Positions 2,895-32,187 of a stretch of 64,000 nt of DNA are shown here, piece by piece. How positions within the stretch are numbered: position 1 is the first letter of the stretch; each line of letters opens with the position of its first letter. Location of the stretch: positions 82,616,097 through 82,680,096 of the forward strand of contig CM037590.1 of the NCBI GenBank assembly GCA_021018995.1. Direction: 5' to 3'. The notes under the pieces are model-generated. The model had not been told where the DNA came from and searched no databases. It saw only the letters and a program-made list of their open reading frames with translations. The position numbers were made by a program, and so were the translations under genes. Source of the stretch: Chloranthus sessilifolius (lineage: Eukaryota > Streptophyta > Magnoliopsida > Chloranthales > Chloranthaceae).

Positions 2895-3018
2895 GTGAGA
2901 GATCTTTCATTTAATTTTCATTCTTTGGTTTAGGCTTAAGTTTTAACCTTTTCCTGTATATCTGGTGTTCTAAAATTCATGCTTTAAGGATATCGAGCGA
3001 TCTAACCATTCGATTGGG

Positions 3019-3147
3019 ATGTCGTCTCTTCCTATATTTGTTATTTCACATGATCTTCATCATGAGGTGATGCTCGTGGATGGAATTGTTCTAGGAATGG
3101 GTGATATTGGGAATGGGAGTGCTTGTCTTCACATCGATCCTTTTTAG
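3019..3147 (+). CDS. Small conserved ORF of antisense unit i (copy A)
   Basis: A 42-residue ORF starts MSSLPIFVISHDL and ends at TAG. Element B has a matching ORF at 29515-29381 whose first 13 residues read MSFLPMFVISRDL; both ATGs are preceded by the same TTGGG. Further along, the pairs VDG/SDG and GMGDI/RMGSI hint at continuing similarity. The following sequence to 3360 is also related to B, including an SDW/SPIGY-type stretch, so this may be only the first exon of a longer product. No family recognised. It could also be a conserved leader rather than a translated gene. Confidence 0.4.
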   Translation: MSSLPIFVISHDLHHEVMLVDGIVLGMGDIGNGSACLHIDPF

Positions 3148-3372
3148 GGGGCAGTGAAGGCAGCGTTGAGGAGGCGATTATGGAGGAGCTAAAAATAGCA
3201 GAAGAGAAGGAGTAAAAAGTGGAGGGATTTATTTCCCAACCAATGCTCCCTGAAGTCTCCGATTGGATACTCCAAGCGGAATCTGCTCCTTGCTTCGTCT
3301 CTGTTTTAAACCTAGTCTTCATTTTGGGTTGTAGGTTAAAGTTTTAGGTTTTCATTTTGGGTTATAAATTCA

Positions 3373-3412
3373 GGAGGTATGCCTTCGGTGATACTTGTAA
3401 AATTTTAAATTA
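3373..3412 (+). terminator. Conserved hairpin and 3'-end motif, unit i (copy A)
   Basis: GGAGGTATGCC-TTC palindrome followed by GGTGATACTTGTAAAATTTT. The same arrangement ends unit ii (4625) and the three antisense units of element B (29212, 28022 and 23259 on the minus strand). A stable stem before a TGTAAA-type polyadenylation context suggests a transcript 3' end. Confidence 0.45.
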
Positions 3413-4205
3413 CAAATGAAAGGGTATTTTTTTTTTGTTTCGTTCTTGTTTGCTTGTTTATTCGTTTAAGCTTATTAGCGGATTAGTTGGATTTACCTGA
3501 CTTGTTTGACTTGTTTTAGGATTTAGTTTAGAGTTTGAGGATTCATCCTGAATTTATTTAGGGCTTATCCCGAGGTTAATTTGCTCTATTGAGCTTGGTT
3601 TAGAAGGTTTACTTAGTTCTGTTCAGTTTGTTGGGGGTATTTTTTTTTTAGTCCTAAACCAGTCAGGTCTCATTCTAGAGAGTTGTTTTTTTTTTAATTA
3701 TAAAGTTTTATCTGGTTTAAGGTTTGATTTTAACTTGATTTTTGGTCTTTTGTTTGATTCAACATGAGACTTAAATGGTGTGAGTTTTCAAAAGGTTCTA
3801 GATGGGTGTTGGGTGTTTAAATCCTATTGGTTTATCCATTTTACTTTGGATATGTGTTTCTTAGGGGGTTAAGTGTTGTATGATTATTGGCCCATCTAGG
3901 TTTGTAATGGATTGTGGTCTTTCAAAGGGGTATGTGTTTGGTTTAGATTTAGATTAGATTGGAATGATTTAAAGGCGTGACACTTGCCATTCTATGGTTT
4001 AGGGAGGTATAGCTTATAAATGTGTGAGTTAAAAGTTTCGGATTCTTATTATTTTAAATTTTATTCCAAGTTTAGGATTAAAAGTTTTGGGGCATTTTTT
4101 TGTGATTTAGGGCATTTTTTTTTTATTAATGTCTTTTCTTCCTTTCTCTTTTGTATCCCGAGTGTTGGACCCGAAGAATTGTGTTTATGGCGTAGATTAT
4201 TGAGA

Positions 4206-4660
4206 ATGGACGGGATTGGGAACACAGGGTAGTGGTCGAACTGCTACCATGCTAAGGGAAGAGATGGAGGAGAAAAAGGTGATAGAAAGGAAACTCAAGG
4301 ATAAGGCAAGGTCAGAATTCTCATGACTGATGCCTATTTTTCCTCGATAGGCTCTGCAGATCTCGTATTAGTTGTTCTTCCTTTTTAGGGTTTCCAAGGC
4401 GAGCTTCTAAGGGCGGATCTCGCAGGTCCTGGGTAGCTTTCCGTGAGCCACTCTTTCTTTTCTACCGGCTTGGGGCAAGGGGAAGAGGTCACTAAGGTTA
4501 GAATTTGTTCAAGGTGCCCATTTTCTCTGGGTTTCTCCGAGATTTCTAGTTTCCCGAATAAATCCAGATTCAGGGATTGCCTGAACGTGTTGATTTTAAG
4601 TTTCTTGTTTTAAGTTGTATAATTAGAGGGTATGCCCTCTGTGCATTTTGTAATTATTTT
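4206..4660 (+). other. Conserved antisense block ii (copy A) with terminal hairpin
   Basis: The block begins with an ATG reading MDGIGNTG and contains a stretch encoding SWVAFREPLFLFYRLGA at about 4428-4478; element B has MSGIGNTG and SWVAFCEPLFLFCQLGA on the minus strand at 28557-28260. Stops interrupt the frame in both. The block ends with the hairpin AGAGGGTATGCCCTCT (4625-4640) followed by a TTTTGTAAT context. Amino-acid conservation over a third-position-divergent segment suggests a former coding exon. No domain recognised. Confidence 0.4.
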
Positions 4661-5164: not shown

Positions 5165-5552
5165 TTTCTGGGGAATTGCGCGTTTCAATCCGAGTGCATA
5201 AATTAATTACGCGCTAGAGAATGGAAGCATGTTCAGAGCGTCAGAATGTAATTACGTGCCAGTTTTCGACCGTTTGATCGATTCAAATGCAAGATAATGG
5301 GTGCGCAATGAAGGCAGTGGATGGTCACTGTACAGGTGACCGTTGGCATTCGCGCACCACTGTATGGGTGCTTGATGTGATTACGCGCTGAGTAGACTGT
5401 GTGCAACTAGATAGTCGGGTTTGTTTGAGCGGCCGACGATTAGATCACGCACTCAAAGCCGGTCGTGTAATCTGAATTAAGCGCTATGATGGTGGGGCGT
5501 GATTAGTTGGCACGCCAAGATTTATGCGCGCGATTCAGCTGTCTTATAAATA
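5165..5552 (+). promoter_or_regulatory. Promoter of the antisense PMD gene, copy A
   Basis: Between 5170 and 5540 there are about eight copies of motifs such as AATTAATTACGCGC (5209), GTAATTACGTGCC, GTGATTACGCGC (5379), TGTAATCTGAATTAAGCGC and GCGCGCGATTC. TATAAATA lies at 5545-5552, 170 nt before the PMD ATG (5722). Copy B has the equivalent array and a TATATAAG box on the minus strand at 27620-27253 with a leader of similar length. The shared order is the evidence for a promoter. Confidence 0.55.
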
Positions 5553-5721: not shown

Positions 5722-8700
5722 ATGGATTTTGAGGGTGGTGGTAGGTACGATATTACCATTTCTGATTTGGAGAGAATGTTAGGGGCAGAGATAGGTGAGA
5801 CTTCTGAGGCTTGGACCGAGATTGTCGGGGAGGTAGTTGGAGAGGAGGTATTAGAGGTTGACTAGCCTGGGGTCAGGGAGGAGGAGCTCGAGATTGAGGG
5901 GGTCGATGAGGATGAGGGTGAGAGGGTTGAGGGTGCGGCTTCAGAGCACCAGGGCGAGGAGCATCGAGATCGCAGACACTTCCCACTGGAGGATTTCTTC
6001 GCTCGAGGCCAGGTAAGCATTCATGAGCAAGGGTTCTTCCATCTTCTTAGCCATGTAGGTTATGGCATAGGCTTATTAGGATATGAAAACCCCTCTAATT
6101 TATGTCAAACCTGCATTGATCCTTGTGTGCTCACTCATGCATCATGATGGCATCTAGACATAGGTCATGTTTCTATTCAGTCATTCTTATTATGTTTTAT
6201 GTGTTTGTTATAAATTGTTATTGTGTTTGGGGCATATTTGACTTGCTTTTAGTTTTAAATTCATCTGTCTTTCGACATAAGTATGTGTTAGTCTTACTAT
6301 TATTATTTGTATTTCGTTCAATAGGAGCCCCCCACAGCCGCCTATCAGCTCGGCATGGGCCTAGTCTCATACTTGGTACCGTGCCTTGCCGGAGTTTCAG
6401 TGGGTGCGACTGGTGTCTTTAAGTTTTGGATTGATCTTAGAGCTGGAGCCCTTTTAGGTCGATCGTGGCCTGATCACGATGATCTTGGAGAGGTGGAGGG
6501 AGGAGCATCAGTCGCTTATCTTTTCAGTTGGCATGATGTTACCAACTCTAGAGGACTGGGTCTGCATCACCGATCTTCGTTTTAAGGTGAGCTGATTATG
6601 GGGCGGATGGAGGGGCATTATCTAGAGGTGTGTGAGGAGATCTTTGTTGTGCCATATTGGTCAAGCGGCTCAGGGCCAGGTGTAGTTCGGGTCACTTAGT
6701 TTTTTGATACGTTTGCGAGTGGCTTCGTCCCCCCGAGGCGCCATTCGGAGGTGAAGGTGACCTATGAGGCACGTTGTGCAGTAGTGATGAGCCGAGAGCC
6801 CGTGGTGGAGCTAGGTTTGGTTGCGGATAGGGTGCTCCGAGCATTCCTGATGCACTTCCTTGGTGCGGTACTCTTCTCTTCTTCGACTCTGAGATGCGTC
6901 ACCGGGTTATTTTTGATGGTTCTTGAGGATTTGGATCGAGTCCCCTCCTATGCATGGGGTCCGACCACGTTGACGCATCTCTATGAGTAGCTTTACCGTC
7001 AAGGACAAGGCATCACGTCGATCGAAGGTTTCCTTCCATTCATCCAGGTGAGTTTTAGTTAATTGGCATCATGATGTCTTTAGCTTGGTAAATTTTTGGT
7101 CGTTTAATGGTAACATCTATTTAGCATTTCTTCTTGTGTGTCGTTGTTGTTGTTATTTTTCTTTTCAGTTTTGGGCGTATGATCATCTCACCTTTCTTTG
7201 TTCGGGAGATCTGTTGGAGGTGACTTTCACGTTCTCGTGGATGCACGTGTGGAGGGAGGCGCTGAGGGGTCACCGTTGTTCTTCGAATCTTTAGATCGCG
7301 TGAGGCATCTTTGAGGATATGCATGCGGGGCAGGTATAGATCGTCATGCGTATGTTTTTTTTTATTTCGGTCTTTTAGGATATGAGTCTTTGTTGTGGGG
7401 TCGGCTTGTTTGCTTGATTGTAAGTGATTTGGAGGCCGTATGCGGGCAAGGAGGACGCGGAGGTACCAGTGAGGGAGTCGATGTCGGCCTTGAGGGAGAG
7501 GTTGGCTGCATTAGAGCAGGGCCACCTCACCGCGAGCGTGCGGGGGGCATTAGACGCTCTCCATAGGGCGATGGAGCGGATGGGGTGCGCTCCTCGTCTA
7601 GATGAGGAGATGCTGCAGTCTTTAGCCTCTTCGGTTGCTAAGGCTAGGGCAGTGGAGGATGAGTTAGGGGTTCGGCTAGCGGAGACTCGACGACTCCTTG
7701 TGAGTTAATTTATATATATATTTTTATATTATGTGGACTCAGTACTTTTGTTGTTCTGACATGGTTGTGGTGTCTCATTTTATTTTGGACAGTCTGCGAG
7801 GGAGGGTGAGGTTGCTCATCAGGTGGCAATGATCGAGTTTTTATGCAGTCAGCAGCAGGCCGGTCGAGAGGTGGAGGCCAGCTTACGATCTGAGATTGAT
7901 CGATTGGTAGGTGTCTTTACAAATATGGTTTCATTAATTGTTAGCATTGTGGGCTTGCCAACTGATGTGTTTATTGCTATTCGTAGAGAGCCGAGCTCGG
8001 TGCCGGAGGTTTCGTTCCGACATTTGATCCATCTTTAGTTGCTTCCTTTAGTTGGGAGGATCCAACGATGGCTCAGCTTCGAGCCAAGCTAGATCATTGG
8101 GTAAGTTGCATTCAATCTTTTTCCTTGTTTGTGTCATCGCATTAGTTTGTCGAATGTCATTGTTTTGCTTTCTTAGTAGCTTACTAATATCATGCGATAT
8201 TTCAGCGTCAGGTTGCTAAGGATCTTCAGACGAGGGGAGGCGACTGCTGCCTCTCTACACCTAGAGAGCCAGGCAAAGTTTCCTGGTTTGGTGTAATTTA
8301 GTTTAGGTGATTTCATCTTTATTTTGGTTCTGACATATCTTGTGTTGGTTTATTTGGTTCTTTGTGCAGGCTGTTCCAGACTCTGCTCCTGAGGCTCCCC
8401 CTCAGGAGTCAGTTCCTATTCCTACTCAGGTATGTTTTAGTTTTTATGTTCGTAGTTTATTTGTCATTATAGTATTTCTCTGACGTGTTTGTTTGTTCTT
8501 ATTATAGATGCCTATGTTTGCTATTCCTTCCGTGCCTCTTGCTGATCCAGTGACTGCTGAGACGATTGGGCGACTCCTGGAGGAGCGGCAAGATCTGCTA
8601 TGATTATTTCCTTTTCAAAATTCCTTATTTTGTTCATGTATACATTAGTTTTCCTTTGACTTGGCATGGTTATGCAAGTCCGTTAGCTTGAAGAGGCGTG

Positions 8701-8839
8701 TCTAGAGGCGGCGTGAGCTCGAGCCACTCCCGAGGTGAGACGGATCCTTGGGGAGATGCAGAGTCGGGAGAACTTGTTTGTCGAGATGATGGCTGCACAG
8801 AGGACTCAGACTGAGGTGTTGGAGGTGGCACGTCGGACG
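5722..8839 (+). pseudogene. Antisense multi-exon PMD-like gene, copy A (truncated)
   Basis: Encodes a plant mobile domain protein (aminotransferase-like PMD, a family of MAIN/MAIL1-type and transposon-borne proteins). Exons inferred from GT-AG borders and comparison with copy B: 5722-6012, 6325-7047, 7169-7333, 7435-7699, 7793-7906, 7987-8100, 8206-8272, 8370-8429, 8508-about 8600, 8689-8839. PMD hallmarks are in exon 2 (ILERWREEHQ; then LMHFLGAVLFSSST, YAWGPTTLTHLY) and exon 3 (FWAYDHLTFL). Exon 4 lacks about 0.35 kb present in copy B that carries the C-terminal PMD part. The rest is helical and Pro-rich. Defects: TAG at codon 48 (5863), further stops and frameshifts in exons 2, 3 and 10, a GC donor at 8273, and loss of the C terminus at 8839. 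Introns are T-rich with good acceptors. Not functional as it stands. Confidence 0.7.
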
Positions 8840-15310: not shown

Positions 15311-15752
15311 CATGAGGAGGAATCTGTCAAGGAGGAGGCGCTAATCTCCGCCTTCCTCGAAAGAAGAGGACTACACTCAATACCTCCCACCCTGGAATGG
15401 CATAGCTCCATTACGCATTCCTTCATCGAATTTCACTCCATTCACAACAAGTACTGTAGTGGGACATACAACTTCCCAAGGTCAACAAGAAACATGCCCA
15501 ATCCTCAAATCTGAGACTAACTATCTGCCACCGCCATTCCCTCGGGAGAAATAGTGCAACAACGCCCAACGGTCTGACCGGATGACCAAGGAACGAGGAG
15601 TGAACTTGCCTCCTCCACCTCACATAATCCCTCCCCCTCCAGCACCAGTGCCTCAACCATCTCAATCGAACTGGTGTAGAGCTCACAGACCTAGCAAAGA
15701 ACCTACCCTGGAGACAGGCCAGGAATATGATCTTCTCTGACATCTCGCTAAG

Positions 15753-16568: not shown

Positions 16569-16583
16569 AAGGACCCGTTCTCG

Positions 16584-17360: not shown

Positions 17361-18380
17361 AAGGGCGGACCAATCCCCTTCCCGCGCCATGGAGGATGGT
17401 TGAAAACAACCTAGAGTCGGTGATTAAATTCATCGAACCATATATACGGTTAATACAAAGAGAAGAATCTCAATTAGACTCATCTGAGGAAGAGCATCGG
17501 TAATTAGCGTATCATTGGTTTGATTCCGAAGATGAAAGTTTGGACGACTATTACCTCTAAACTCTCTTCGACGACGAAGCACTTCACGTAGTAGAGGAGG
17601 AAGAGGAATTATTCGATAGGCTGTAACTAGTGTCACTCATCAGGAGGATAACCTCAGACGAAGATCATACAAAAAAAAATGCCAAATTCAGAATGAGTCC
17701 ACATCATCCGAAGACTCGCCTGAACGACTTCAACAACTGTCACACTTCCCCAACTAGGAGAAGCAACCTCGCCGATTCTGCCTCAGGAAACTGACCCTGT
17801 ACCATACTTATTATCAAAAATAAAAAAATAGAAAATCCCAAAACACCTAAAAATATAAAAATGGAAAACCCAACAAAATTAGAAGACCTCAGAAAAGACA
17901 GGGAGCCCTTTATCCTAGACCCATTCAACAATCAACAGGGGGACCTCTCCCCTAAGGCTACAAGTAGCGATTACGTCGAAGAAGCTAAAGAAGAGCCAAC
18001 TAATCTACCGAGACTTGCTGACGCCTTTGACGTCATTAAGTCACATCTCAAGTCCACTCGGCACAACTCTACTAACTCTCTCTCGTAAGGACGCAAGGCT
18101 ACCCAATGTAATAACAAGCCAGTCATCATACCTGACGAGATACTCTGTGACTTTGAGAGGAGGATGAACATCCTCGACCTACACCCTACTAAGGATGCCA
18201 CGGTTATCAACTACACTGATGGAGGGCAACCTCTCACAAAATTAACCCCCCAATGTAGTGTTTTGTAGTGTACGAGTTCACAGATGATGAAGAAGGAGAA
18301 CCAGTCGTTGAGGAGACATAGGACTTCCATTGGGCCATCAAGCGCTTCGATGAGCAAACTTAAGCCACCGCAGAACCTAC
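17361..18380 (+). pseudogene. Decayed linker upstream of RT, element B
   Basis: Continues the acidic, Glu/Asp-rich character (for example DSEDESLDDYYL near 17520) with many stops. An AT-rich low-complexity tract (17810-17865) interrupts it. From 17860 a 75-residue frame (ENPTKLEDLRKDREPF..) may be the residue of the pre-RT region. No catalytic motif is present. Confidence 0.35.
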
Positions 18381-19440
18381 CGAAGAAATCAATTTCGGTA
18401 CCGAGGAGAAGCCCAAGAAGCTATTGATCAGCGTAATGCTCAACCCTAAGGAATGACAACAGATTATCCAAGTCCTCCAAGATCACCTTAGCTCTTTCGC
18501 ATGGTCCTACGAGGATATGCCTGGACTGGACCCAAGCTTAGTAGAACATCGATTGGGTCCTGGAGACTGATGCGAAACCTGTCAAGCAGAAACTCAGGAG
18601 AATGCACCCCTAAACGGCACTACAAGTCAGAGGAAGTTGACAAACTACATAAAGCCAAATTCATCTGAGTCGTCCTCTACCCTGAGTGGGTTGCAAACAT
18701 AGTACCTGTTGCCAAGAAGGACGACAAAGTACTGGTATGCATTGATTTCCAGAATCTCAATAAGGCGTGCCCAAAAAATGATTTCCCACTACCGCACATC
18801 AACACTCTGGTCGACAATACTGTGATGTTATCCTTTATGAACGGCTTCTCCAGATATAACCAGATTAGATTAGCAAAATCAGACCAAGAAAAGACTTCGT
18901 GTACCATGCCATGGGGAACTTATTGCTACGTCGTCATGCCTTTCAGGCTCAAGAACGCAGGAGCCATGTATCAATGCGCCATGATGGCTATCTTCTATGA
19001 CATGATGCACAAATGTGCCGAAGTCTATGTCGATGGCATACTAGTGAAGTCTTAGACCCGAGTAGGACATGCTGAAGCACTACGACAGGTACTACAAAGA
19101 TTTGAACAATATCAATTGAAGAAGAATCCAAAGGAATGAGTATTTGGAGAAACCTCCAGAAAATTTTTGGGATTCATAGTTAGCAAACGAGGAATCGAAG
19201 TCGACCCTGTGAAGGTCAGAGCCATTCTCGAGATGCCACCTCCCAACAACATCAAGGAACTACGAGGCTTGATAGGAAGACTGCAGTTTATTAGGAGATA
19301 CATCTCCCAACACTTAGATCGATGCGACCCTTTCTAGGAGCTACTTAAAGGAGGAGCTAAGTATAAATGGGATGACCAGTGCCAGCATCCCTTCGACAAT
19401 ATTAAGAAGTACCTCCTCAACCCACCAATATTATCGCTAC
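18381..19440 (+). pseudogene. Reverse transcriptase, element B
   Basis: RNA-dependent DNA polymerase of Tat/Ogre type. The sequence FAWSYEDMPGLDPSLVEHRL (18499-18558) is the characteristic pre-RT block. Downstream come YPEWVANIVPVAKKDDKVLV, the NDFPLPHIN motif, LSFMNGFSRYNQI (canonical D replaced by N in the catalytic block), TPWGTYCY-like MPWGTYCYVVMPF and YVDG in place of YVDD at about 19026. The connection region reads FLGFIVSKRGIEVDP. At least four frameshifts or stops occur. Two altered catalytic aspartates mean it could not work even if read through. Confidence 0.8.
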
Positions 19441-19830
19441 TAGTTCCCGAAAGACCCCTGATCCTCTATGTGTCGGCAAACGATAAGGCGATGGGAGTAA
19501 TTCTTGGACAGTATGAAGAAGACGACAAGAGAGAGAAGGCTACTACTACCTCAGTAGAACGATGGTCGAGTATGAGCAAAAATACACACCAACGGAGAAG
19601 ACCTGCCTCACACTAGTATGGGCCTCGACAAAACTAAGACACTACTTTGGAGCGCATAAAATATTAGTACTAACATGCATGAATCCTCTGAAGTACATCT
19701 TCGAGAAGCCTGCTACTTCCGAAAATATCGCTTGATGGCATATGCTACTATAAGAGTTTGACATTACCTATGTCATGTAGAAGTCTGTCAAAGGACAGGC
19801 GATCGCCGATTACCTCGTCGACTTACCACT
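19441..19830 (+). pseudogene. RNase H (first), element B
   Basis: Degrades the RNA strand during reverse transcription. Blocks in order: RPLILYVSANDKAMGVILGQ (19456-19515), then in a shifted frame YYLSRTMVEYEQKYTPTEK with the second acidic residue, LTLVWASTKLRHYF, and IFEKPATSENIA. It ends with GQAIADYLVDLPLP, the typical end of the Tat first RNase H. One frameshift near 19545 and stops near 19735 and 19775 are visible. Confidence 0.7.
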
Positions 19831-19904
19831 CCCAAAAGACGAACTTGTGCATGCAGACTTTCCCGACGAAGACTTACTCTCGATTCACAACGAAGAGCCT
19901 GATA

Positions 19905-20290
19905 ACACCTCATTGACCCTCTACTTTGATGACACTCTCAATCAAAATGGGAAAAGTATTAGGATAGTCCTACTAAGCCCGGAATGAGTCATCACACCAA
20001 AAGCCTTCCGGCTCGACTTCCCAGTCACCAACAACATTGCAAAAAGCCTTCATCGTCGGATTACGAGCAGTGCTACAACTGGGTGTTAAGTAGTTGAAGA
20101 CAATCGGCGACTCCAGGCTTGTGATATCACAAGTCATAGGAGAGTGGAAAACCAAGGAAAGAAGACTGATGGCCTAATTAGAAATAGCTCAATTTCTGAT
20201 AAAATTTTGAAAGAATCTCTTTCATGCACATCCCTAGATTAGAGAATGAGCTCGCAGATTCTCTCGCCACACTAGCCTCAGTCATACAGG
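19905..20290 (+). pseudogene. Second RNase H-like domain (aRH), element B
   Basis: An additional RNase H domain downstream of the first is a hallmark of the Tat lineage. Visible: LTLYFDDTLNQNGKSIRIVL (19915-19974), a fragment TNNIA where the family has NNMAEYEA, and HIPRLENELADSLATLAS at about 20225-20278 with the final conserved Asp. The middle is broken by frameshifts. Confidence 0.6.
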
Positions 20291-20409
20291 TACTAGTCGA
20301 ACAAAATACAAAATCCTTCTTCATCAAAAGATTGACAAAACTGGCTCACAAGGTCACTTGGCAAGTGAAACTGGAACTGCCAACTAGACCAGAAGCTCAC
20401 ACAAACGAC

Positions 20410-21762
20410 GGGTAACCTGCCCTAAGTATTACCATGGAGAAAAAGGCCACCATTGCCACCTTTAGATTCGAGAGATCACCAACTGACGATAGAAATCTAT
20501 GGTACTTCGATATATGGAACTTCCTGAAGCATCAACATATCCCTCCTTACGCTACAAAGATCGAACAAAAGACTATAAGGAATTGATGCGCGAGATTCTT
20601 CATCCTCGGTGAAATCTTATACAAAGAAGCCTTCACCAAAGGAGTACTACTATGATGCGTCACGCAGCCGAAGGACAATACATCATCTGAGAAATACACG
20701 CCAGTGCTTGTGGCGCCCACACTGGTAGATAGAGACTCACAGATAAGATCAGATGATAAGGCTATTTCTGGTCGACGATGATATGGAATTGCCACCTCTA
20801 TGTCCAATGCTGCAAATAGTAACCAGAACACATTGCACTTATCAAAGCCCCATCAGTTGCATTGAACCCTATAACTTCACCATGTCCATTCTCGATGTGG
20901 ACCTTCGATATCATCGGATCCGTCACGGACACCGTTGGGAGTACTCACAAGCACGCGTTCATACTCACTACGACCAAATACTATACCAAGTGGGCAGAAG
21001 TTGAATCGTACATCAGAATCACCGCTTCGACACTCATGAGGTTTATTATTCAAAATATTATCACCCGGTTTGGAGTACCTAGAATGTTCGTCACCGACAA
21101 TGGACCATAATTCATCGCAAAAAAGATGAAGAAACTATGCAAGAAATTAGGCATCGACTTACATCACTCATCGCCATTCTACCCTCAGGAAAATGGACAA
21201 GCAGAAGCCACGATTAAAACACTGATCTAAATTTTGAAATGAACAGTGGAGATGAGCAATGGTGTCGACTTACCTGAACGACTACCAGAAGCATTCTGGG
21301 CCTATAGGACTTCTATTCGTATAGCCACTGGCAAAACTCCCTACCTCCTCACATATGGGATGGAAGAAATCCTATCCTACGAGATGCAAATACCATCCTT
21401 ATGAATCCAACTCGATGGTGAGTTATCCTTAGATGAAAGTAGAATTGCTCTGCTCACCGAGCTAGAATAACATGATGAGACGCGTCTAAGGGCAGTTGAT
21501 CACGCTCAGGTATATCAGAGGAGAGTGGCTAGGGTTTACAATAAGAAAGTCCTTGAGTGAACTTTCGACATTGAGAATTAGTCTTGAAGAAAATCATGCC
21601 CTCTAAACATACCCATCTGAAAGGGAAACTGAAGCCAAATTGGGAAGGCCCATATGTTATAGCAGCTGCATACCCAAGGAATGCATACAAGCTGGTGGAC
21701 CAGGACAGGGAAGAACTCCCTAGCCCTTGGAACGCCATGTACCTTAGAAAATATTACCCTTA
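20410..21762 (+). pseudogene. Integrase and C-terminal tail, element B
   Basis: Catalyses insertion of the cDNA. The zinc-binding N-terminal part is badly decayed. The catalytic core is partly readable: FSMWTFDIIG (first Asp, about 20897), RFGVPRMFVTDNGP (second Asp, 21069-21110), FYPQENGQAEATIK (Glu, 21178-21216). AFWAYRTSIRIATGKTPY and a C-terminal block LKPNWEGPYVIAAAYP (21626-21675) with NAMYLRKYYP before the TAA at 21760-21762 match the normal end of Tat pol. Several stops and at least two frame changes. Confidence 0.72.
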
Positions 21763-23239
21763 ACCAGATGATCATCACATCCCGTAATCATGCACTTATA
21801 TCTACCACCCCGATTTACCATCCACCTCCTTATTTGGGTAATTTGATCAAAGGACTAGTGACATACCTGACCACTTTCAAAAGCATGAGTAACGCCTGAT
21901 TCTCATCCCTTTCTCCCATCATTAGAGAAGACGTTAGAGCGCAAAAAATGAAGATGCTAGGCTCAATCAAAACTCACCATTCTTGCGTTAGTAGGTTGCT
22001 TGAAAAAAAAAAAATATATAGATATATTTATATACAAAAAAAAATTGAGTGAGAGCAATATGACGAATGAACAAGCCAATGAGCTCAGGGAAGCATAAGC
22101 AAGCTGTGAGGACATCTCTGGTAACTCTACTAGAAATGTATAAGTAAGTTGTAAGGGCATCCCTAATGTCCCGATACTACTAGACGTCGTTGTAAGGTGG
22201 CGGGAGGAGGACAAACTCCTGCTAACCATAGAATGTGAGACTTTGATGGTGCTGAAACATGACGGAGAGCTCAATCATGGCACCCCATACCCCCTTCTGA
22301 GAAAATGACTGTTACTCATCCCTTTTAGAAATCGTCCGAAACAAACTATTCCCCTACGTCACTGACCCTTATCCCTCTTTCTCCCTTAATTTTTACTTTC
22401 AGACGATAAGTCAGAAGCCTCCTGTGATATTCCTAAAACTAAAATTGAAAACTAGTGAATGACGACTAATGCAATCACTTACTATACCTACCACACACCC
22501 TCCCTAATAATGACCATGGGATAGGATGACCACCACCAAAGGTAGACCCCTAATATATGACTGATAGGACTAGACGACCTCCCCCTGATTCGATGACAGT
22601 ATCAAAAGGCTTTTCTTCGAAACCAACTCACCATATACACATGGCCCCCTGTAGACCCAAAGTACTTATCAAAAACCTAGATAAGCTCCATTGCACCTCG
22701 ACACTAGGGCATTTTTTTTAGAAGAGGAGTCACATTAAAGGCCCCTGCTTGCCCATAGAGAAGATGTAGAACAATGAAGTTACCACCCAAGGAATACTAC
22801 TGAAGATACTACACTAATGACTCTACTACGCTCCTACACTGGGGCATTTTTTTAGTTTAGGATTTTTCTTTTAGTTATTTGCTTTCCCTGTTGCACTATT
22901 TCCCTTTTCTTTGTAATATAATAAAAATAAAGAAAGAAAAAGACAAAATATATCTACCTTTACTACGAGACCCCGGTCTGAGACACCTCCCCCCTTGACG
23001 ATTAGCAAGGGGGAAAATAAAAATTACTAATAACTTTACTCTCATGTGCAGATACATAGCAACCTTCAACTATTATTGGGCCAACTCGAGTAGAATCCAA
23101 GTCCCAGTAATAGGCGACGGTATCAAAGATAGGCAACCAAAGTATAGAAGGTAACAAGAGAAAAGGAAGCGAAGTCAGGTATATCTACACCAAAAATCTC
23201 TTTATATATATATATATATCAAAATTTCTTTTACATCTG
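21763..23239 (+). other. Spacer between pol and the antisense genes of element B
   Basis: Non-coding, AT-rich sequence. Two GGGGCATTTTTTT motifs (22706 and 22845) and A/T-rich simple repeats (22003-22043; 23203-23220) are visible. The ORF-like stretches on either strand show no domain. The minus strand from about 23239 inward would be sequence downstream of the PMD gene's 3' end. Confidence 0.5.
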
Positions 23240-23259
23240 TCACTAGGGGCATACCCCCT
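23216..23259 (-). terminator. Hairpin and 3'-end motif of the PMD gene, copy B
   Basis: On the minus strand, 48 nt after the PMD stop (23309-23307), AGGGGGTATGCCCCT is followed by AGTGACAGATGTAAAAG. This is the same arrangement as at 3373 and 4625 in element A, and as the ends of units i and ii in B. A conserved stem and TGTAAA context suggest the transcript 3' end. Confidence 0.5.
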
Positions 23260-23306
23260 GTATATATAATGAGTAAAAATAAAATAAAAATTCCCTACTC
23301 CCTCCA

Positions 23307-26300
23307 CTACCTCTGCGAGGGACGCTCGTCACCATCTCCCATATCCTCGACCCCCGGATCTGGGGTCTGGTCCTCCGATATGTCGATCCTAGCACCAGGA
23401 CTCGATGAACACTCCCTAGGAGGAGAAGGCCTAGCTATAGATCCTCCCTCACTCGCCTGACTGGAGACTCGTCGAGAATGTGAACGTAGAGGGCCAAAAG
23501 CAAGTATAGGCCTAAGAGTCGAGTTAGCCTGGGCATAGGCCCTCATACGCTCACTGGTCTCTCGACAGATCTCTGCTAGTGAAGTAGTAGCCCTCGACCC
23601 AGACCTAGGAAGGTGATCGAGCATCCCTTTCACTCTCCCTCCTGCTCTTATCAACTCGTGCTGTAAACGATCTATCGTCGATTGCTTCTCAACACAAGCC
23701 ACGACTTGAGCACTCTCTAACTCTGCCGTCCGAATCCTCCGCTTGACCAGCAGATCTACTATCACCTCTTGGAGGTGGCACTTCGTCATATCAGGAGGAA
23801 TCTCATGAACCTCCTGACGAGCTAAGACGTGCTACATCTCTAGACGTGACTGCTCCAGCTCACGTACCTGCATAAGGCAAGGGCTAAGAAGACGGATATG
23901 CATAACAGGATAAAGAGCATGGACAATGAACACATTAAGTCAGAATGTTCCTGCAGAAGATGCTCCACGATTGCAGTAGTCACTGGATTGATAGGTAGTG
24001 GAGGAGGAGCCCCGAATACAGATGGCTGTAATAAAAAATAATAAAAATATACATAAGAAATCTTACCATTAAAAAATATAAAATGAAATAAAACTATACT
24101 AACTAAACATACCTGAGTAGGAGTAGGAGTTGACTCCTGAGGAGGAGCCTTGGGAGCAGAATCAGGAATAACCTGCGCGTGAACCAAATAAACACACACA
24201 AAACTTGTTAGTTGAAACTTGTTAATGAACAAGATAAAAACTAAACAAACCAACATCCACATTATACCTGACTCTCAGGGCTTAGAGAGGCAGCTGTCGC
24301 CTCCCTCGTCTAAAGGTCCTTAGCAAGGTGACGCTGAAAAGGCATAACACGACATCAACAAACCGCTTGATAATAAAAGACCGGATAACTCAGAAGATCG
24401 AAGAAACTTACCCAATGCTCTAGCTTGGCCTAGAGCTGGGCCATCGTTGGATCCTCCCGACTGGAAGAGGCGACTGAAGATGGATCGAATGTTGGAGTAG
24501 ATGCCCCAGCAGCAGAAAGCTCCACTCTCGACAAATATCAATAAACACATAAGATGCGATGAAGTCAACAAATGCTAATGATTAATAAAACAAAACAAAA
24601 CAAGCACTCACCAGTAAATCAACCTCGGATTGTAGGCTCGCCTCGACCACCCGGCCAACTTGCTATTGACTACTGTATGACTCGAGGAACGCCGCCTGCC
24701 TGGCGATCTCGCTCTCTCTTTAAGTCTGACAAACAGGAACCAAATAAGACCATTAAACTAAGATGACTAAAAATAGGAATGAATAAAACTTACAAGTATG
24801 AATAAACTCACCAGAGATCGTCGGGTCTCTGCAAGCTGAATCCTCAGCTCATCCTCCGAGGCCTTGGCCTGGAAGACAGAATTTGTCACAGACCACAGCA
24901 TCTCCTCATCTGGATGAGAAGCGCATCCTGTCCGCTCCATCGATCTACGGAGTGTGTCTAGTGCTCCGCAGACACTTGCACCTAGGTGGCCCTGCTCTGA
25001 TGCAACCAGTCTCTCCCTTAGAGCTAAGGTAGACTCGAGACCACCAACCGCAAAGGAACCACTCCCATGGAAAGGGAGAGTGAAGAGCTGACCACCGCCC
25101 AAGTCTTGAAACCATCTCAAGAACTCTCGGGCATTCGCCTCATCGCGTGCCCTAGTTACCCTGGTTCCCCCAGCTCTAAAATCCTCAATCTAAGCTGCCA
25201 TCCTAGATGAAAAGATGCGACTAGAGGGACTAGTCATCCTCCTCGCTACTCGATGGCGAATCTCTGGGGGACTCCTTGAGGAAGCCCCAACTGACAGGTC
25301 GCTCGAGAAAGGTGGATATGCTCCACCTTCTCAAAATAATGGACCCAAATGTCCACATCGAAGAAGAAACAACCAGACTAGATCACTGACTGCGCCACAT
25401 CCTCCTCAACCCCATAGGGCCTCCAAATCACCTGTGACTAGAAATAAGCAAAACAACTTGTCAAATCTATGACCTAAACACTTAAGACACCATGACAACA
25501 TAAACAACATGTACCTGCCCTGCATGCATGACCTCAAACAAACCCTGTGCAGTTTGAAGATCTAAAGACTGGCAGCAGGCATCCCAATGTCCTCCTCCAC
25601 ACGTGCATCCATGCAAATGTGAAAGTAACCTCCACGGAACCCGCGGGCGCAAGAATGCGAAGTGATCATACGCCTAGAACTAAACACATGGCGTCAGAAA
25701 TTATCACTAAAATAAACTCCAAAAATACTAAGATATTACCAACGAAACCAACTAAAAAGTCACCTAGAGGAAAGAGAGGAAACCCCCGATGTTCGCGACG
25801 CTTCTCCCTCTTCTGTAAAGTTGCTCATAGAGGTGTTCCAACGCTGTCGCACCCCAAGCGTAGGTGGGCACCTGATCTAATTCCCTTAGCAAGGTCAAGA
25901 ATAGACCCGTCACACACCCTCGGGTCGAGGACGAGAAGAGGACCACGCCGAAGAAGTGCATCAAGAATGCTCAGAGTATTCGATCTGCTGCCACTCCCGG
26001 CTCCATCACCAGTGCTCGACACGCCATCACCTTGTTGTGTGCCTCGAATGCCGCCCTCGCCTCCAAGTGAGGTCTCGAAGGGACGAATCCACTCGTAAAA
26101 GTGTCAAAGAACCAGGTGACCCAGACAACCCCGGTCCCGGATCCATTGTACTGATACTCGACACCGAGCACCTCCAAACACACGACCTGATAGTCACTCT
26201 CCATTTGCCTCGTGATCAACACCCCCTCAAACCGTAGCCCGGTGATACGAATGCAGTCCTTAGGGGTAGGCAACAACATACCTATTAGGAAGAGCAGTGC

Positions 26301-27084
26301 CTACTACTCCTCCCTCCATCTTTCCAGAATCACCCTGATCAACCCACGGTCGATCGTAAAGGCCTCCAACTCCAAAATTGGCCCAAAGCTGAAAGCCGCC
26401 ATTGCGCCTGTTGGAATTCAGGTAGAGCACGGTACTAGGCGTGAGACTTCGACCACGCCATACTAATTGCTAACGCCGGAGGCTCTTAACGAACGACGAA
26501 ACAAGTAAAAAAAAAAGATACATTAACCTATGCCTACACTAATACTGATCACAACTACAGGCAATGACCAAACCTACAAAATAATGATAACAATAACAAT
26601 AATAATAACAAAAGTAATAAAAATGACAACTTACAGCAAGCACGCAAAACATGGTAAAAACTAACATAGAGCAATAAAATAACATGACCTAAAGCTATAT
26701 ACAAATATGATGCATGGATGCGCACACCCTAAAAGTAAATGCAGGTTCAACGTAAAATTAGAAAATTTTTCCATCCTAAGAAGTTCTATGTTATAACTTA
26801 AATGCCTAGAAATGAAGGAGGAAATCTTGCTTATGGATACCTACCTGATCTCGTCTAAAGAACTCCTCCAGTGAGATCTGGATTGTAGGCTCATGCGGAG
26901 CAGCACCATCCTCGCCGGCCCTGTCATCAGCCTCAGGGACCTAATCCCTGACAACCATCTCAACATCTCCCTCGGCTACAACACCAGCACTAGTGCGGAC
27001 CTCAGAGGCCTCACCTCCCTCCTCAACCAACCGCTCTAGCTCAGATGCAGTCAGGAGAAGTCTATCACTACCCTTAGACTCCAT
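23307..27084 (-). pseudogene. Antisense multi-exon PMD-like gene, copy B
   Basis: Encodes a plant mobile domain protein from the strand opposite gag-pol. Exons (5' to 3' on minus): 27084-26845, 26484-25764, 25673-25515, 25431-24812, 24725-24612, 24526-24412, 24333-24268, 24172-24113, 24025-about 23935, 23867-23307. Exon 2 carries VILERWREE, MLLPTPKDCIRITGLRF, MHFFGVVLFSSSTRGC and YAWGATALEHLYEQLYRR. Exon 3 has AYDHFAFL; exon 4 keeps the C-terminal PMD part (HYFEKVEHIHLSRATCQLGL), lost in copy A. Exons 4-5 are predicted helical, exon 8 is Pro-rich, and exon 10 (187 codons) ends SQR-stop. The start ATG follows a leader of about 165 nt. Stops include TAG in exons 1, 2 (at its very end), 4, 6, 7 and 10. 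Distinct from MULE-borne PMD because it is embedded in a Tat element. Confidence 0.75.
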
Positions 27085-27249
27085 CTAAGATCGAAGAGCT
27101 TGAAAAACTAAAGAGATCGCAAGAAATGACGTCCAAAATGGATGGGTAGATTGCAAGATATCTCGAAGACATGGAATTCAGGGAGCAAGGAAGAGGAGAG
27201 CTCGGAATTGCAAAAGATTTAAGAAGTGCGAGTTTGAAACGAAAATCTC

Positions 27250-27625
27250 AAGCTTATATAGAGCAAGATCTAATCGCGCGCCTGACTATGGGCGCGCAAT
27301 TGAATCGTGCGCATTGTCCATCGTGCTCAAAGTAAAATATGCGCCATAGAATGGGCACGTAATCAAATCGTCACCCGCCCAAATGCTGATCGCCTGTTCT
27401 GGATAGAACCCGCAATTAGATTATGCACCCTGTATCAGGTGCACAAATCCAAGCATCACCCGTACATTGAACGGGAGACGAGTGCATTGCGTGCACTAAG
27501 CAAAGCGCCCAATAATTTTGTACGCATTTTAACTCTCGCATAATAGACCCTTGGGTTCATTACTCCCGTGCACCTAACCGGACGCGCAATTGTATTAAGC
27601 GCTTCGGACCCTACGTGCAATTACC
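27250..27625 (-). promoter_or_regulatory. Promoter of the antisense PMD gene, copy B
   Basis: TATATAAG lies on the minus strand at 27260-27253. Upstream of it (higher coordinates) the dyad motif recurs: GGGCGCGCAATTGAATCGTG (27290), GGCACGTAATCAAATCG, CCGCAATTAGATTATGC (27410), GGACGCGCAATTGTATTAAG (27581). The order array, TATA, leader, ATG matches copy A at 5165-5722. Confidence 0.55.
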
Positions 27626-27984
27626 CAGGTTGAACAAAAAAAAATAATATATGTGCCAACCATCAGTAGCCAAAATTGGAATCCCAGACTTAGAAACCAA
27701 CCCCAAAACACCATACACAGTCCAAATTTCACACACATGCCCTGATTTAACCCCCCAAAACTAAAAAATTCACCCATACTTAAGCGCTTAAGATCATTAG
27801 GGCCCATCCAAAACTTACACCCAATCAGGACCAAACCGAATTAAAATACTTACGGAATATTCCAAACTTAATTTGAGCAAAATAATAAGAATATATACCA
27901 CCCAACCAAATAGGGATGCACCCGATAAAATAAGGCCATACTAAATTCAGATAATCATAAATAACTAAATCTTTCATAAAAATG

Positions 27985-28557
27985 GTAAAAGTTATTACAA
28001 ATTACACCAAGGGCATACCCTTTGAAAATACAAAATTACAACTTTGAAATGAAAGATGAATTTGAATTTAGAAGAGGCACCCATAAAAGAAATGCCCAAG
28101 TAATTATAATACATAAAAGGGGAAGTTGATGGAAAAGCCCGGAGACGAAGCACGCCCTGAAAGAATACCAACAAGAATATCATCTTCCCCACCTTTTCTT
28201 TTGGAGATACTGCCTATGATGCAATCTTTTAAGTTACACAGTAGAATACCCGCATCGCAGAGCCCCGAGTTGGCAGAAAAGAAAGAGTGGCTCACAGAAA
28301 GCTACCCAGGATATGATGGATACGCTAATTGAAAGCCGATCTTGGAAATTCCTGAGAGAGGGCCGACCAGCAGTCAATCCGCAAAGCCTCCCAAAGGAGG
28401 AACTGGCTTCGATCACGTGAACTCTGACGCAGCTCTATCCTTTGGTTTTCTTTCCCCCACCTTTAAGTCTTCCATCTCTTCCCCCAATGGGATGGCACTT
28501 CGGGTCAGATTAACATCATCGACCATAGCACCACCCCGTATTCCCAATGCCGCTCAT
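27985..28557 (-). other. Conserved antisense block ii (copy B) with terminal hairpin
   Basis: Starts with an ATG reading MSGIGNTG (28557) and contains SWVAFCEPLFLFCQLGA near 28308-28258, both shared with copy A. It ends with the palindrome AAGGGTATGCCCTT (28022-28009, minus strand) followed by GGTGTAATTTGTAATAAC. Frames are interrupted by stops. No separate promoter array was seen directly upstream, unlike units i and iii, so units i and ii may share a transcript. Confidence 0.4.
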
Positions 28558-28559
28558 TC

Positions 28560-29160
28560 TCAATAACAAACAAAATAATTACAAGTCGCTTTAGGGTCTA
28601 ACACTCGGGATACAAAATAAAAAGGACGAAAACACATTAAAATAATAAAACACTACAAATCAAATATGCCCCAAAATCCTAAGTTAGAAACAAAATTCAA
28701 AATAGAACCAAGCCCCTTAACCCCTACTTATAACATACACTCTCTAAGTCACAAATGCAACAAGTGTCACATTCCCAAGCACTCTCCATCTAACTGAATC
28801 TAGACCAGACACATACCCCTTGGAAGAAAAAACCATAGTCCATGACAAACCTAGATGAACCAATAATAATCCAACACTTACCCCCCTAAGAAAACACCAA
28901 TCCACCCAAGAATAGATAAGCCAATAGGATTAAAACACCTAACACCCATCTAGAACTTAAAAAAATTAAACCCTAAATTCATACATTTCTAACACGTGTC
29001 ATCCAAAATCAAACATAAGATCAAAACAAAATACTTTAAACCTTAAACATGGGACTCTCCCTCTCACCATGACAAAATCAAAACCCCTTAACCCCAAAAA
29101 TTAAATAATAAGGTTTAAACAAAATAAATGCCCATTCAAACCAAGTACTGAAAAAAATAA
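28560..29160. other. Spacer between antisense blocks i and ii, nothing recognised
   Basis: AT-rich sequence corresponding by position to 3420-4200 of element A. Similar phrases (ACTTGTTGCATTTGTGACTTAG-like stretches and CCAATAGG near 28920 versus CCTATTGG near 3826) indicate common ancestry. No frame is conserved. Confidence 0.4.
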
Positions 29161-29171
29161 GCATCTCTTTA

Positions 29172-29212
29172 TTTAATGAAAATTTGTACAATATCAACGG
29201 AGGCATACCTCC
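29172..29212 (-). terminator. Hairpin and 3'-end motif, unit i (copy B)
   Basis: Minus strand: GGAGGTATGCCTCC (perfect 5-bp arms) then GTTGATATTGTACAAATTTT and AATAAAG at about 29172. Counterpart of 3373-3412. Confidence 0.45.
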
Positions 29213-29380
29213 TAAATTTACAACCCAAAACCCTAACTTACAACCCAAAATGAAAATTGAACCCCAAAATGGACACAAAGCCCCAGCATGGAGCATCCAA
29301 TCAGAAGCAACAGAAGGCGAGATGGAGGATTGGTTGGGTAACACCTTTCCCTCCATTTGGAGGACTTCCCTTCCATCACT

Positions 29381-29515
29381 TCACCTTCTAACAATAATGA
29401 AGGGTGTGTAGGACACCTCCTTCGCAATACTGCCCATCCTCAAAGTCACTCCACCATCAGAAGCCGCGTCAAGCTAAAGATCACGCGAAATGACAAACAT
29501 AGGAAGGAACGACAT
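29381..29515 (-). pseudogene. Small conserved ORF of antisense unit i (copy B)
   Basis: Starts MSFLPMFVISRDL, then an in-frame TAG at codon 14, then continues to a TGA at codon 45; copy A is 42 codons plus stop with the same first block. The ATG is preceded by CAATTGGG as in copy A and lies 92 nt after a TATATATA box (29614-29607). Function unknown. See the copy A entry for alternatives. Confidence 0.4.
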
Positions 29516-29606
29516 CCCAATTGAATGGCTGGATCACAAGATATCAGTAAAGCATTAAAATTAGAGTAAAACAGGAAGGAATAAACAAAAATAAAAGAAA
29601 CTCAGA

Positions 29607-30085
29607 TATATATAGACACCCGCTTGATTAAGTGCCAGAAAAGGAACGCGCAATTCAATTATGCTCATTGGAAGAAGTGCGAAATCACAATCACTCACAG
29701 GTCAATGTGTGCGCAATTGACCTTTTGTCTGCTCAGATGTTTTGATAAACTAATCGCACGCACTGATCAGAGCACGCAATCAAATTACATGCCAAGGCTA
29801 CTGCACAGAATCTAAAAGGTCACCCAGATAGTGACCTGGTGACGCTTCGATTGCCCGCACTGAACCGAGTACATAATTGGATTACACGCTAATTCTAATG
29901 CATGAAATCCGAATAGACACCTGAACACCTCTGCTTTACGAACTCGACGATGCTTCGATTGCATGCCATTCACCCTGCATACAATTGGATTGTACGCGAC
30001 CACGTAAGTGCATAATTAACATAATCATGTGTGCCCTTTCTGGAGTGTAATTTAATTAAATGCCCGATACCCTGCCCGCAATACT
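29607..30085 (-). promoter_or_regulatory. Antisense promoter i of element B (motif array plus TATA)
   Basis: TATATATA at 29614-29607 (minus strand), preceded by about nine dyad-like motifs: ACGCGCAATTCAATTATGC (29646), GTGTGCGCAATTGACC, GCACGCAATCAAATTACATG (29772), CATAATTGGATTACACGC, ATACAATTGGATTGTACGCG (29979), GTGTAATTTAATTAAATGCC. Matches 2556-2894 of element A in arrangement. Confidence 0.5.
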
Positions 30086-30145
30086 CAGCTATGACACACA
30101 CCTCAGATAGAACACACGTCCCTAACACACACAAACATGTGCTCT

Positions 30146-32187
30146 TGTTGTGGTTTTTTATTCTAGTGTGCTGATTATTGTGTGGTGAAAATAAATTAAA
30201 ATCAAAGTAAAATAAAGAATGGATTCAGCACAGCTAAAATAATCTTAGACCTACAAGATACAGGGCCTATTGTAGTAAGTTTTGATAAGTAAGAGCTTGT
30301 CCCACAGAGAAATTGATCTAGAATCCAAAATGGGCTATAATAGTATGCCTCCAGATCTGGCTACAGATTTGACAATCCTAAAGAAAGGGAGTTGGGTGCC
30401 ACGACTACACTAAATTAACCCTAACAAAAGAGAAATAAAGTGCAGCCCTATCCTAAAGAAAGGGTTAAGAAGAAGATGGTGATGGTGTGTGCCAAAATAA
30501 AATATATAAATGATGGGAAGTAAGCAGGTTGAGCTAGAGTTAATACAGTAATGTAACTAAGATTTAAACTGTCTCTATAGTGATCCTTACTGAGATGCTA
30601 TTACTAACCTCAACAAGGTAGAAATATCTAACTTAACCAATGCCATTTGGGGTGCTCTTAAGGCTATAGGCTGTCCACTTAAATGGCCATAACCTATCCT
30701 ATAGAGTCTGTCAAATCCCATTGATCAAGTCAGAAGTTGCTAATCTAATCAAGAGGAGTGGACTTATCATTTCCTCATCCACTAGACCAGATTAGGCAAT
30801 GAATACTATTGCAATACTATGTAATGCCAGTGCTACAAGCTCCCCAGATCTGCGCACAGATCTGACTGACATCCATAGGTATTCCAACTCATAAAGTCCT
30901 AAGTACTTTGCCAAGGCCAACGGCTCACTGTGCCCACAAAAAGGACCAGCAATAGGTTGAATAAAGATTTAGATTTAGCCGATCATTGCTACAAAAGGCG
31001 TATAATGACTCAGCCTCAAGCTGTAATTACTACAGAGGAATCAGATCTAACATCTAATATCGATAAAGTAAAATAGAGGAGAGCTAGTTCCTGCACAAAC
31101 CTCCTCACAAGGATCTAGCAGCTCATGTGCAGAGGAGAAGAATCCTTCTCAGACATGTGGCTGGACACCACCTTAGGGTTATACTCTATCCATACCATAG
31201 AGATCTGAGAAAGAATATGTAAACTCTTGCTGCCACCAGAGTCCCAGGGCTACGAGCTCTCCAGATCTGGCTACAAATCCAGCTTGCTATCCATGTGGCT
31301 ATCAAACTAAGGAAAATTAGATGGTAAACATTAGATCTACTAGAAACTGAATGGGCTAGTCCCAAAGCACGGATCTTATAGACATCTAAGGAAATCATAA
31401 GATCTGTAGATTTAATTAGTCATTAAAACAACAATCCATTGATGAAAGCAAAACTTACAATGGACTGCCTCAAGGCTGTAGCCTGTACACAACTGCTCAT
31501 CCAAAATATCCTAATGTATACAAAGCCTATTATAAAACTGAAATAAAACTAAACCTAGCTACTTACAGAGGGATTAGCCAGCCAATGTTGGGCTAAGAGA
31601 GAAGAAAAATGAGAAAAAGAGATGATCAAACCCTAACCCTAGCCTGCTGGAGCTCACAGTCGATAGAGGATGAAAAGAAGGGCTGATGATAAAACTAAAT
31701 TCTAAGTGTGGCTTATATACTCTGTCCATACGGCCTTGGCTCTGAAAAGATTAACCCTAATTTTTCTAGCAGACGTGATACTGTTACAACTCTTGAATGC
31801 TTTGAGATGTGTGCCTCAAAATTTATACCTTAAGAAGTGTGCCCTAGCTTTGGAAAATTCCTAAAAGGTCCTTGAGTTAGGGTTGAGAAGTGGAGAACCC
31901 AAGCTTCACGGGGCTGGCATCTGCATTAATTCACTCGCACAGTTGCTTTGCCTTCGCGAAGAAGCGTTTGGTTTAGGAGGTTTGTTCACTGACGCAGAAG
32001 ATCCTCAATTGATCGCGCAGTTGCTTTACCCTGCAGTGTTGTCACAGAGGTGACTTGGAAATGCCAGGATTTCTCATGCAGTAGAGCTTCAGTAGTTCTC
32101 TCTCGCTGGGTACTCGCACAGGTAGGCTCCTACGCTCGCATAGTAACTGGTTAGGCTCCAGAGTGCGCGAGGAAAATTGTGGGTGTC
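30146..32187 (-). repeat. Athila-like solo LTR (LTR0), left part
   Basis: Reverse complement of the LTR family at 32188 and 58825, from its 3' end (..CCACAACA at 30146) to a point about 600 bp from its 5' end. It continues at 61478-62076 on the other side of element 1, giving about 2.64 kb in total, the full LTR length. Flanks of the joined LTR are GCTCT (30141-30145) and ACTCT (62077-62081), a one-mismatch target duplication. A TATATAAG box lies on the minus strand at 31719-31712. No internal sequence is attached, so it is a solo LTR sitting in the 3' region of element B. Confidence 0.85.

Follow-up and report, generated by a model that had tools for sequence, protein, structure and literature searches.

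How can a gene divided by many introns persist in a retrotransposon, an element that multiplies by reverse transcription of its own RNA? The question is raised by a 64,000-nucleotide stretch of Chloranthus sessilifolius DNA (contig CM037590.1, positions 82,616,097 to 82,680,096, hereafter the window), which holds two copies, A and B, of an intron-rich gene for a protein with a plant mobile domain (PMD). Plant long terminal repeat (LTR) retrotransposons are generally described as being without introns, with Ogre and EVADE named as exceptions in the available text of one report (PMC12786077). Taken as a whole, the explanation that we hold to be very probable is that A and B belong, as decayed copies, to an abundant Tat-type Ty3/gypsy LTR-retrotransposon family that carries a nine-intron PMD gene in antisense orientation.

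The regions of A and B were aligned, the exons were derived and their frame tested, both strands of the neighbourhood were examined and the host genome (the window's own, 2,168,743,587 bases in 32 contigs) was searched. The gene begins at 5722 on the plus strand in copy A and spans 27084-23307 on the minus strand in copy B, as the initial annotation had placed it. That annotation had counted about ten exons at matching places; each copy has ten exons and nine introns, with matching intron places, and the sizes it had given for exons 5 to 8 are those listed in Table 1. Both copies are dead, with several stops and frame breaks in each. A frame break in all four copies that have a full exon 4 led us to consider a hidden intron or a programmed shift in this exon, an idea that was rejected because the four copies are broken at three different places, which favours separate decay.

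Unspliced, the minus strand of B matches the Pfam PMD profile (PF10536) in exon 2 only (profile positions 7-180, 61.7 bits). When the exons are joined, with X at the breaks, the match extends over positions 7-346 of 347 and reaches 99.8 bits, and the exons of A, in which exon 4 is internally deleted, reach 94.0 bits over positions 12-251. Both copies exceed the Pfam cut-off of 34.9 bits, which agrees with the PMD identity first proposed for the gene. Selection was assessed on 609 codons aligned in a common frame, with stops (8 in A, 12 in B) excluded from the rates. The two copies diverge by 0.282, 0.228 and 0.442 at the three codon positions and their dN/dS comes to 0.22 (bootstrap range 0.16-0.28). 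In 300 control trials in which the observed substitutions were redistributed at random the ratio averaged 0.69 and never fell below 0.51, and the two shifted frames gave 1.24 and 0.78. Among the exon groups, exon 2 has the lowest ratio (0.10), and exons 1, 7-8 and 9-10 have values near 0.5. The low overall value indicates that the frame was under protein selection while the lineages of A and B parted. Among five copies, namely A, B and the three loci L029, L030 and L031 described below, dN/dS is 0.23-0.27 between subfamilies (all six pairs) and 0.31-0.40 within them (all four pairs), the higher values within subfamilies being what dead copies should give as they add neutral change. We show here that selection long kept the gene working in the past. 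A 588-residue query found no homologue at E 0.001 in a public protein set (7996 candidates), the PMD part as query gave one weak match, to a Vitis PMD protein (E 0.03; 3943 candidates), and the viral contigs searched held no relatives of the gene.

The introns are in phase 0 wherever the frame can be traced on both flanks, the start of exon 6 in B being off by one. Seven of the nine donors in A are GT and one is GC, and eight of nine are GT in B; the intron 9 donor is lost in both, and GTATG stands at that place in all three other copies. On average the readable donors rank at the 96th-97th percentile of regional GT sites and the acceptors at the 84th-88th percentile of AG sites, and neither ranking was reached in any of 20000 random draws, a comparison that is partly circular in that the sites were picked with GT-AG in mind. 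The introns are T-rich (47.4% T in A and 48.7% in B, as against 26.1% and 25.3% in the exons) and poor in G+C, like those of plant genes.

On the plus strand, opposite to gene B, the order of domains is reverse transcriptase (RT), native RNase H (RH), a second RNase H (aRH) and integrase (INT), and the same order is found in L029. According to the accessible part of a survey of such elements, Tat is marked by its two RNase H domains, and an aRH between RH and INT is the arrangement of flowering-plant Ogre and Retand elements (PMC6317226); the order RT-RH-aRH-INT in the carrier of copy B is thus of the Tat type. The integrase frame ends at 21760, as placed by motif, and the minus-strand PMD gene ends about 1.5 kb beyond. 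In this degraded copy of the element the RT frame starts at 18669, and what we take by motif to be a protease-like frame, which has no Pfam match, ends at 16565. The plus strand is A-rich across 16-30 kb (AT skew 0.11 to 0.26) and around A (2-8 kb) the skew has the opposite sign (-0.26 to -0.28), as two oppositely oriented elements should show. Copy B is 5'-truncated and is interrupted on its right by an Athila-like LTR at 30168; copy A is interrupted by another at 9177. A continuation of copy B past the Athila insertion, at 62.1 kb, scored 26.8 bits against a shuffle maximum of 25.4 and is not claimed. Both A and B have the PMD-bearing extra gene known from Ogre, and at E 0.1 the joined exons of B match PMD only and not Transposase_28 (PF04195), the domain of the Retand antisense open reading frames (ORFs).

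A sense orientation of the gene was also considered, for the reason that Athila-like LTRs abut both loci in matching orientation (9177 on the plus strand, 30168-32171 on the minus strand) and that the minus strand has a polypurine run beginning at 22996. It was rejected because the abutting LTRs belong to other elements and because of the position of pol in four loci (B, L029, L030 and L031).

The arrangement recurs in the host genome. A search with the exon-2 peptide, in which the best 150 of 9116 first-look candidates were scored, matched B itself and, at 63-76% identity, 149 further places, and a corresponding integrase list holds the best 150 of 34338 candidates, most loci being in the PMD or the integrase list alone. 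All five PMD/integrase pairs within 30 kb of each other among these listed matches, B included, have the two on opposite strands with the integrase downstream of the PMD gene, at a distance of 4.2-5.3 kb in four pairs and 19.5 kb in one. In each of the three copies obtained with flanks (L029, L030 and L031), exons 1-8 and 10 lie in order on one strand and the integrase on the other; exon 9 was absent from the queries used. L029 also has aRH, RH and RT in order, which are unmatched in the L030 and L031 stretches. Alignment of the five copies places exon 9 and all nine introns at matching places, and of 45 splice sites of each kind 37 donors are GT and one is GC, and 39 acceptors are AG at the aligned column. 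The copies form two subfamilies, one of A and L030 (82.5% identical over the exons) and one of B, L029 and L031 (76-81%). The antisense position in a Tat-like element, which the initial annotation had asserted for both copies, is thus seen directly for B, in all three flanked copies and in all five pairs, and for A by way of its close relative L030, where the integrase is on the strand opposite the PMD gene. Intron 1 (6013-6324, 312 nt in A; 26844-26486, 359 nt in B) is longer than the other introns and more alike between the two subfamilies than introns 2-9, which could reflect a regulatory element near the promoter.

The retention of introns through copying was examined with a 178-residue query spanning exons 2-4, to which an intronless copy would be expected to give the highest score. 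No listed match covers both junctions, the longest being 123 residues (best 150 of 9013 candidates, 440 matches). We then inspected 24 copies, namely A, B, L029-L031, six whose match extends through a junction over most of the following exon and 13 that run 12-28 residues past exon 2. As 19 of the 24 were picked for a match running past a junction, and so for looking nearest to intronless, this is a strict test for introns 2 and 3. In 19 copies the two introns both reach from donor to acceptor, and the other five (L032 and L034-L037) have a ragged deletion or break at intron 2 or 3 or the adjoining exon, with intron sequence remaining; precise excision of either intron was seen in none of the 24. 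A continuous intronless frame in related elements, which would have spoken against the idea that many introns are kept through retrotransposition, did not turn up in the search at introns 2 and 3, and all nine introns stand in five copies of two subfamilies.

Where the introns came from can be approached through the other PMD genes of the genome, in which the strongest Pfam PMD matches fall into two groups outside the A/B family. In three loci (L001-L003), which look like host genes, a single open frame of 641-739 residues takes in the whole PMD, without the two introns that lie within the PMD of our gene. The next 20 fetched (L009-L028) form a different repeat family, with 20-32% identity to B in the stretches that match, which is a second abundant PMD family in the genome. 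MULE transposase sequence was found in 14 of these 20 loci, always opposite the PMD, L025 with its transposase domain being one of the 14, and six had no match in the stretch examined. Within the PMD, the genes of this MULE-linked family are interrupted by introns after '..GLLTLVE' and before 'VTWDPY'. A free global alignment of its PMD with that of B scored 121.5, as against -26.0 for the best of 200 shuffles, the two being about a quarter identical (70 identities), and both PMD junctions of both families share alignment columns and are in phase 0. This indicates that the two PMD introns predate the split of the MULE-linked and the Tat-borne gene, and that the gene was acquired or passed on in the form of intron-bearing DNA and not by way of mRNA. 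It seems probable from the sequences that the gene moved in this form between Tat and MULE elements, in one direction or the other. The initial suggestion that a spliced gene of cellular type had been captured is thereby refined: an intron-bearing source is supported by the MULE-linked family, but not by the three intronless open PMD genes. The ancestry of Gypsy-borne as against plant PMD genes was left open by Ikeda et al., as far as the accessible text goes (PMC5418596). One MULE-linked locus (L012) holds, at 8383-8832, an integrase fragment with 40% identity to the integrase of B; it shares the strand of a PMD exon, which it immediately precedes, and is perhaps a nested insertion.

A TATA-like motif stands at matching columns in all four promoter regions aligned. 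Related promoter and leader sequences, alignable with those of the PMD gene, head a second conserved unit farther upstream, which is present in both copies. Some stretches of this unit are 82-88% identical between A and B, above the PMD exons overall, and it has no Pfam match, no Rfam match and no clear reading frame in either copy.

The family carries, antisense to and downstream of the integrase, a ten-exon PMD gene with a long tail, and we propose that a TATA promoter of its own would drive a separate antisense mRNA, as has been reported for gene23 of Grande (PMC7264820, available text). The introns would be removed from this mRNA only, and the genomic RNA transcribed from the 5' LTR would pass them on reversed; they probably survive since the sense genomic RNA, which is the one reverse transcribed, bears only their reverse complement, which the spliceosome would not read. 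The product is most likely a nuclear protein that counters or tunes the silencing of the element by its host, or influences its transcription. Of all parts of the proposal this one is the weakest, a guess made because the PMD proteins MAIN and MAIL1 act in silencing, according to what is accessible of two reports (PMC5418596, PMC7156037). Tentatively, we would go further: a Tat element may have acquired a complete intron-bearing PMD gene as DNA, for example when a MULE-borne PMD gene inserted into it or recombined with it, and have fixed this gene in antisense. Its nine introns would all have stayed in use since then, where they could serve export and translation of the second mRNA separately from the genomic RNA and perhaps a gene-like marking against silencing that prefers intronless transcripts, the antisense position being a general rule for intron-rich genes of retroelements. 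To this extended proposal, which is possible, we give rather less than even weight.

Some observations weigh against the antisense nine-intron gene as set out here. Its promoter and its splicing as a separate antisense mRNA are predicted from sequence signals, its place between integrase and 3' LTR is put by analogy with the order in known Tat elements, and copy A has no adjoining pol in the window. Losses were searched for genome-wide at introns 2 and 3, introns 1 and 4-9 being compared in five copies. In addition, when A and B are aligned piece by piece, the introns are no less similar than the exons (70.7% as against 68.3% identity), contrary to the initial statement that introns have diverged; in this alignment shuffled introns also align better than shuffled exons, and gap openings are 3.5-fold more frequent in introns (4.9 per 100 columns, 1.4 in exons). 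That statement does hold in the five-copy alignment, where A and B are 68.1% identical over exons 2-10, 65.6% over intron 1 and 59.0% over introns 2-9, with 0.5, 3.0 and 4.4 gap openings per 100 columns, respectively. Exon similarity is thus no higher than intron similarity in one alignment and higher in the other, and the codon test favours a real frame.

The piecewise identities, together with the stops and frame breaks in both copies, are what might be said for the view that the exon pattern is a chance reading of two decayed sequences; in our judgement the probability of this is negligible, as it is refuted by the codon test with its shifted-frame and random controls, by the profile match and by the three further flanked copies. 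It is very improbable, though not to the same degree, that the PMD gene is no part of a retrotransposon and is a host or MULE-borne gene that came to lie beside Tat remnants by chance. MULE-linked PMD genes with both PMD introns do occur in the genome, and A has no pol beside it in the window. However, the PMD gene lies antisense to the integrase in all flanked copies and all five pairs, four of them at closely similar distances, and around B no MULE domain was found in the frames scanned (minus strand 22001-31000, plus strand 12800-22801) and the longest inverted repeats were of 34 nt and imperfect.

The remaining alternatives accept the element but read the gene or its history differently. 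The antisense unit could act as RNA, by pairing with the genomic RNA, by making small RNAs or by blocking copying; retrotransposon antisense RNAs can act in these ways (PMC7264820, PMC12786077) and tea PMD genes make phasiRNAs (PMC10673657), as stated in the available portions of these papers. Selection over the joined frame and the nearly full-length PMD match nevertheless point to a protein, to which an RNA role could be additional, and we regard action as RNA as improbable. More weight is due to the possibility that a MULE took the PMD gene from Tat, or that the shared intron positions arose by later gene conversion, so that the Tat gene would not come from a MULE-like source. Shared positions leave the direction of transfer unsettled, and the comparison outside the family covered introns 2 and 3. 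With Tat and MULE PMDs so far apart in sequence a recent conversion is unlikely, but this point does not affect a transfer from Tat to MULE, and we consider this alternative less likely than not. Our preferred reading remains that of decayed Tat copies with an antisense nine-intron PMD gene, the features of which are collected in Table 1.

Table 1. Positions, in the window, of the two PMD gene copies, their upstream features and the pol domains of the element of copy B
Feature	Position	Strand	Remarks
A, second conserved unit	2969..4490	+	counterpart of B unit 28250..29587
A, TATA-like motif	5545..5552	+	170 nt upstream of start codon
A, exon 1	5722..6012	+	alignment with B
A, exon 2, PMD	6325..7047	+	
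A, exon 3, PMD	7169..7333	+	
A, exon 4	7425..7699	+	internal deletion, about 345 nt shorter than in B
A, exon 5	7793..7906	+	114 nt
A, exon 6	7987..8100	+	114 nt
A, exon 7	8206..8272	+	67 nt
A, exon 8	8370..8429	+	60 nt
A, exon 9	8508..8597	+	donor lost
A, exon 10, start portion	8679..8839	+	traced to 8839, exon continues
Reverse transcriptase (element of B)	18741..19181	+	Pfam RVT_1, E 2.3e-11
Native RNase H	19368..19759	+	Pfam RT_RNaseH_2 and RT_RNaseH
Second RNase H (aRH)	20043..20207	+	Pfam RVT_3, 22.7 bits (cut-off 21.6)
Integrase core	20883..21185	+	Pfam rve, E 9.1e-10
B, exon 10 and stop	23307..23867	-	
B, exon 9	23936..24025	-	90 nt, donor lost
B, exon 8	24113..24172	-	60 nt
B, exon 7	24268..24333	-	66 nt
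B, exon 6	24412..24526	-	115 nt
B, exon 5	24612..24725	-	114 nt
B, exon 4, PMD end and tail start	24812..25431	-	620 nt, likewise in L029, L030 and L031
B, exon 3, PMD	25515..25679	-	within spliced PMD match, 99.8 bits
B, exon 2, PMD first half	25764..26485	-	PF10536 profile 7-180, 61.7 bits unspliced
B, exon 1	26845..27084	-	frame, donor, alignment with A and L029-L031
B, TATA-like motif	27254..27260	-	170 nt upstream of start codon
B, second conserved unit	28250..29587	-	upstream of gene B, related promoter and leader at head

The rest of the window holds nested Athila-like elements. The inner one, with LTRs at 35650-38213 and 46543-49110 (92.7% identical), sits inside another with LTRs at 32182-34656 and 58819-61475, and this outer element (32182-61475) itself lies inside a minus-strand LTR of like kind (30168-32171, 61478-62076). 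Their name rests on the sequence after two of the LTRs, which resembles what we take to be a tRNA-Asp primer site. A 208-bp unit at 9756-10172, adjoining Athila-like LTR sequence, is tandemly duplicated with 98% identity, and 11824-12144 holds a pair of direct repeats, each some 160 nt long (78.7% identical), which in addition show a weak inverted match to each other.

Both PMD genes and antisense accessory genes in Tat elements are already known. The HBZ gene of HTLV-1 has few introns, and its mRNA is spliced. HBZ is likewise an accessory gene read antisense from the provirus, as mentioned in the accessible text of a study on Retand (PMC11963269), but its protein is unrelated. The same text describes Retand elements with antisense TRP28 (Transposase_28, PF04195) ORFs between pol and the 3' LTR, which resemble our system in belonging to the Tat clade and in having an antisense accessory gene in a long region downstream of pol, whereas the gene described here has a PMD, no PF04195 match and nine introns. 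Ogre elements share with it the Tat clade, the aRH between RH and INT and a PMD in the extra gene, PMD extra ORFs being given for 57% of Ogre elements; an intron-split antisense PMD gene is not described, nor the usual place or strand of the PMD stated, in the part of that survey available to us (PMC6317226). Gene23 of maize Grande is similar as an antisense gene downstream of pol with its own promoter, but neither a PMD nor introns are mentioned in what is accessible of the review that describes it (PMC7264820). MULE-borne PMD genes (PMC5418596, in its available portion; L009-L028) have in common with ours a PMD in a mobile element and two PMD introns of the same place and phase; in their case, however, the carrier is a DNA transposon, in which the keeping of introns needs no explanation, and the sequences are only distantly similar. 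The literature searched contained no intron-rich PMD gene in antisense, key papers on extra ORFs, Grande and Ogre splicing lying outside that search.

As far as their accessible text tells, the Ogre survey predicted unbroken ORFs of at least 250 codons (PMC6317226) and the Retand survey considered unbroken ORFs, mainly of 600 bp or more (PMC11963269). Surveys that demand such long unbroken frames would mostly miss a gene of the present type, and both the number and the size of antisense genes in Tat elements may have been underestimated. If uptake as DNA and the antisense position as a general rule should prove true, ORF-based surveys would systematically miss the intron-rich genes of retroelements. 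The intron positions also bear on whether plant PMD genes came from Gypsy elements or the reverse, a question raised in the available text of Ikeda et al. (PMC5418596). Finally, a nine-intron gene kept through many retrotranspositions in an abundant family would be a natural test of the idea that introns antisense to the genomic RNA survive.

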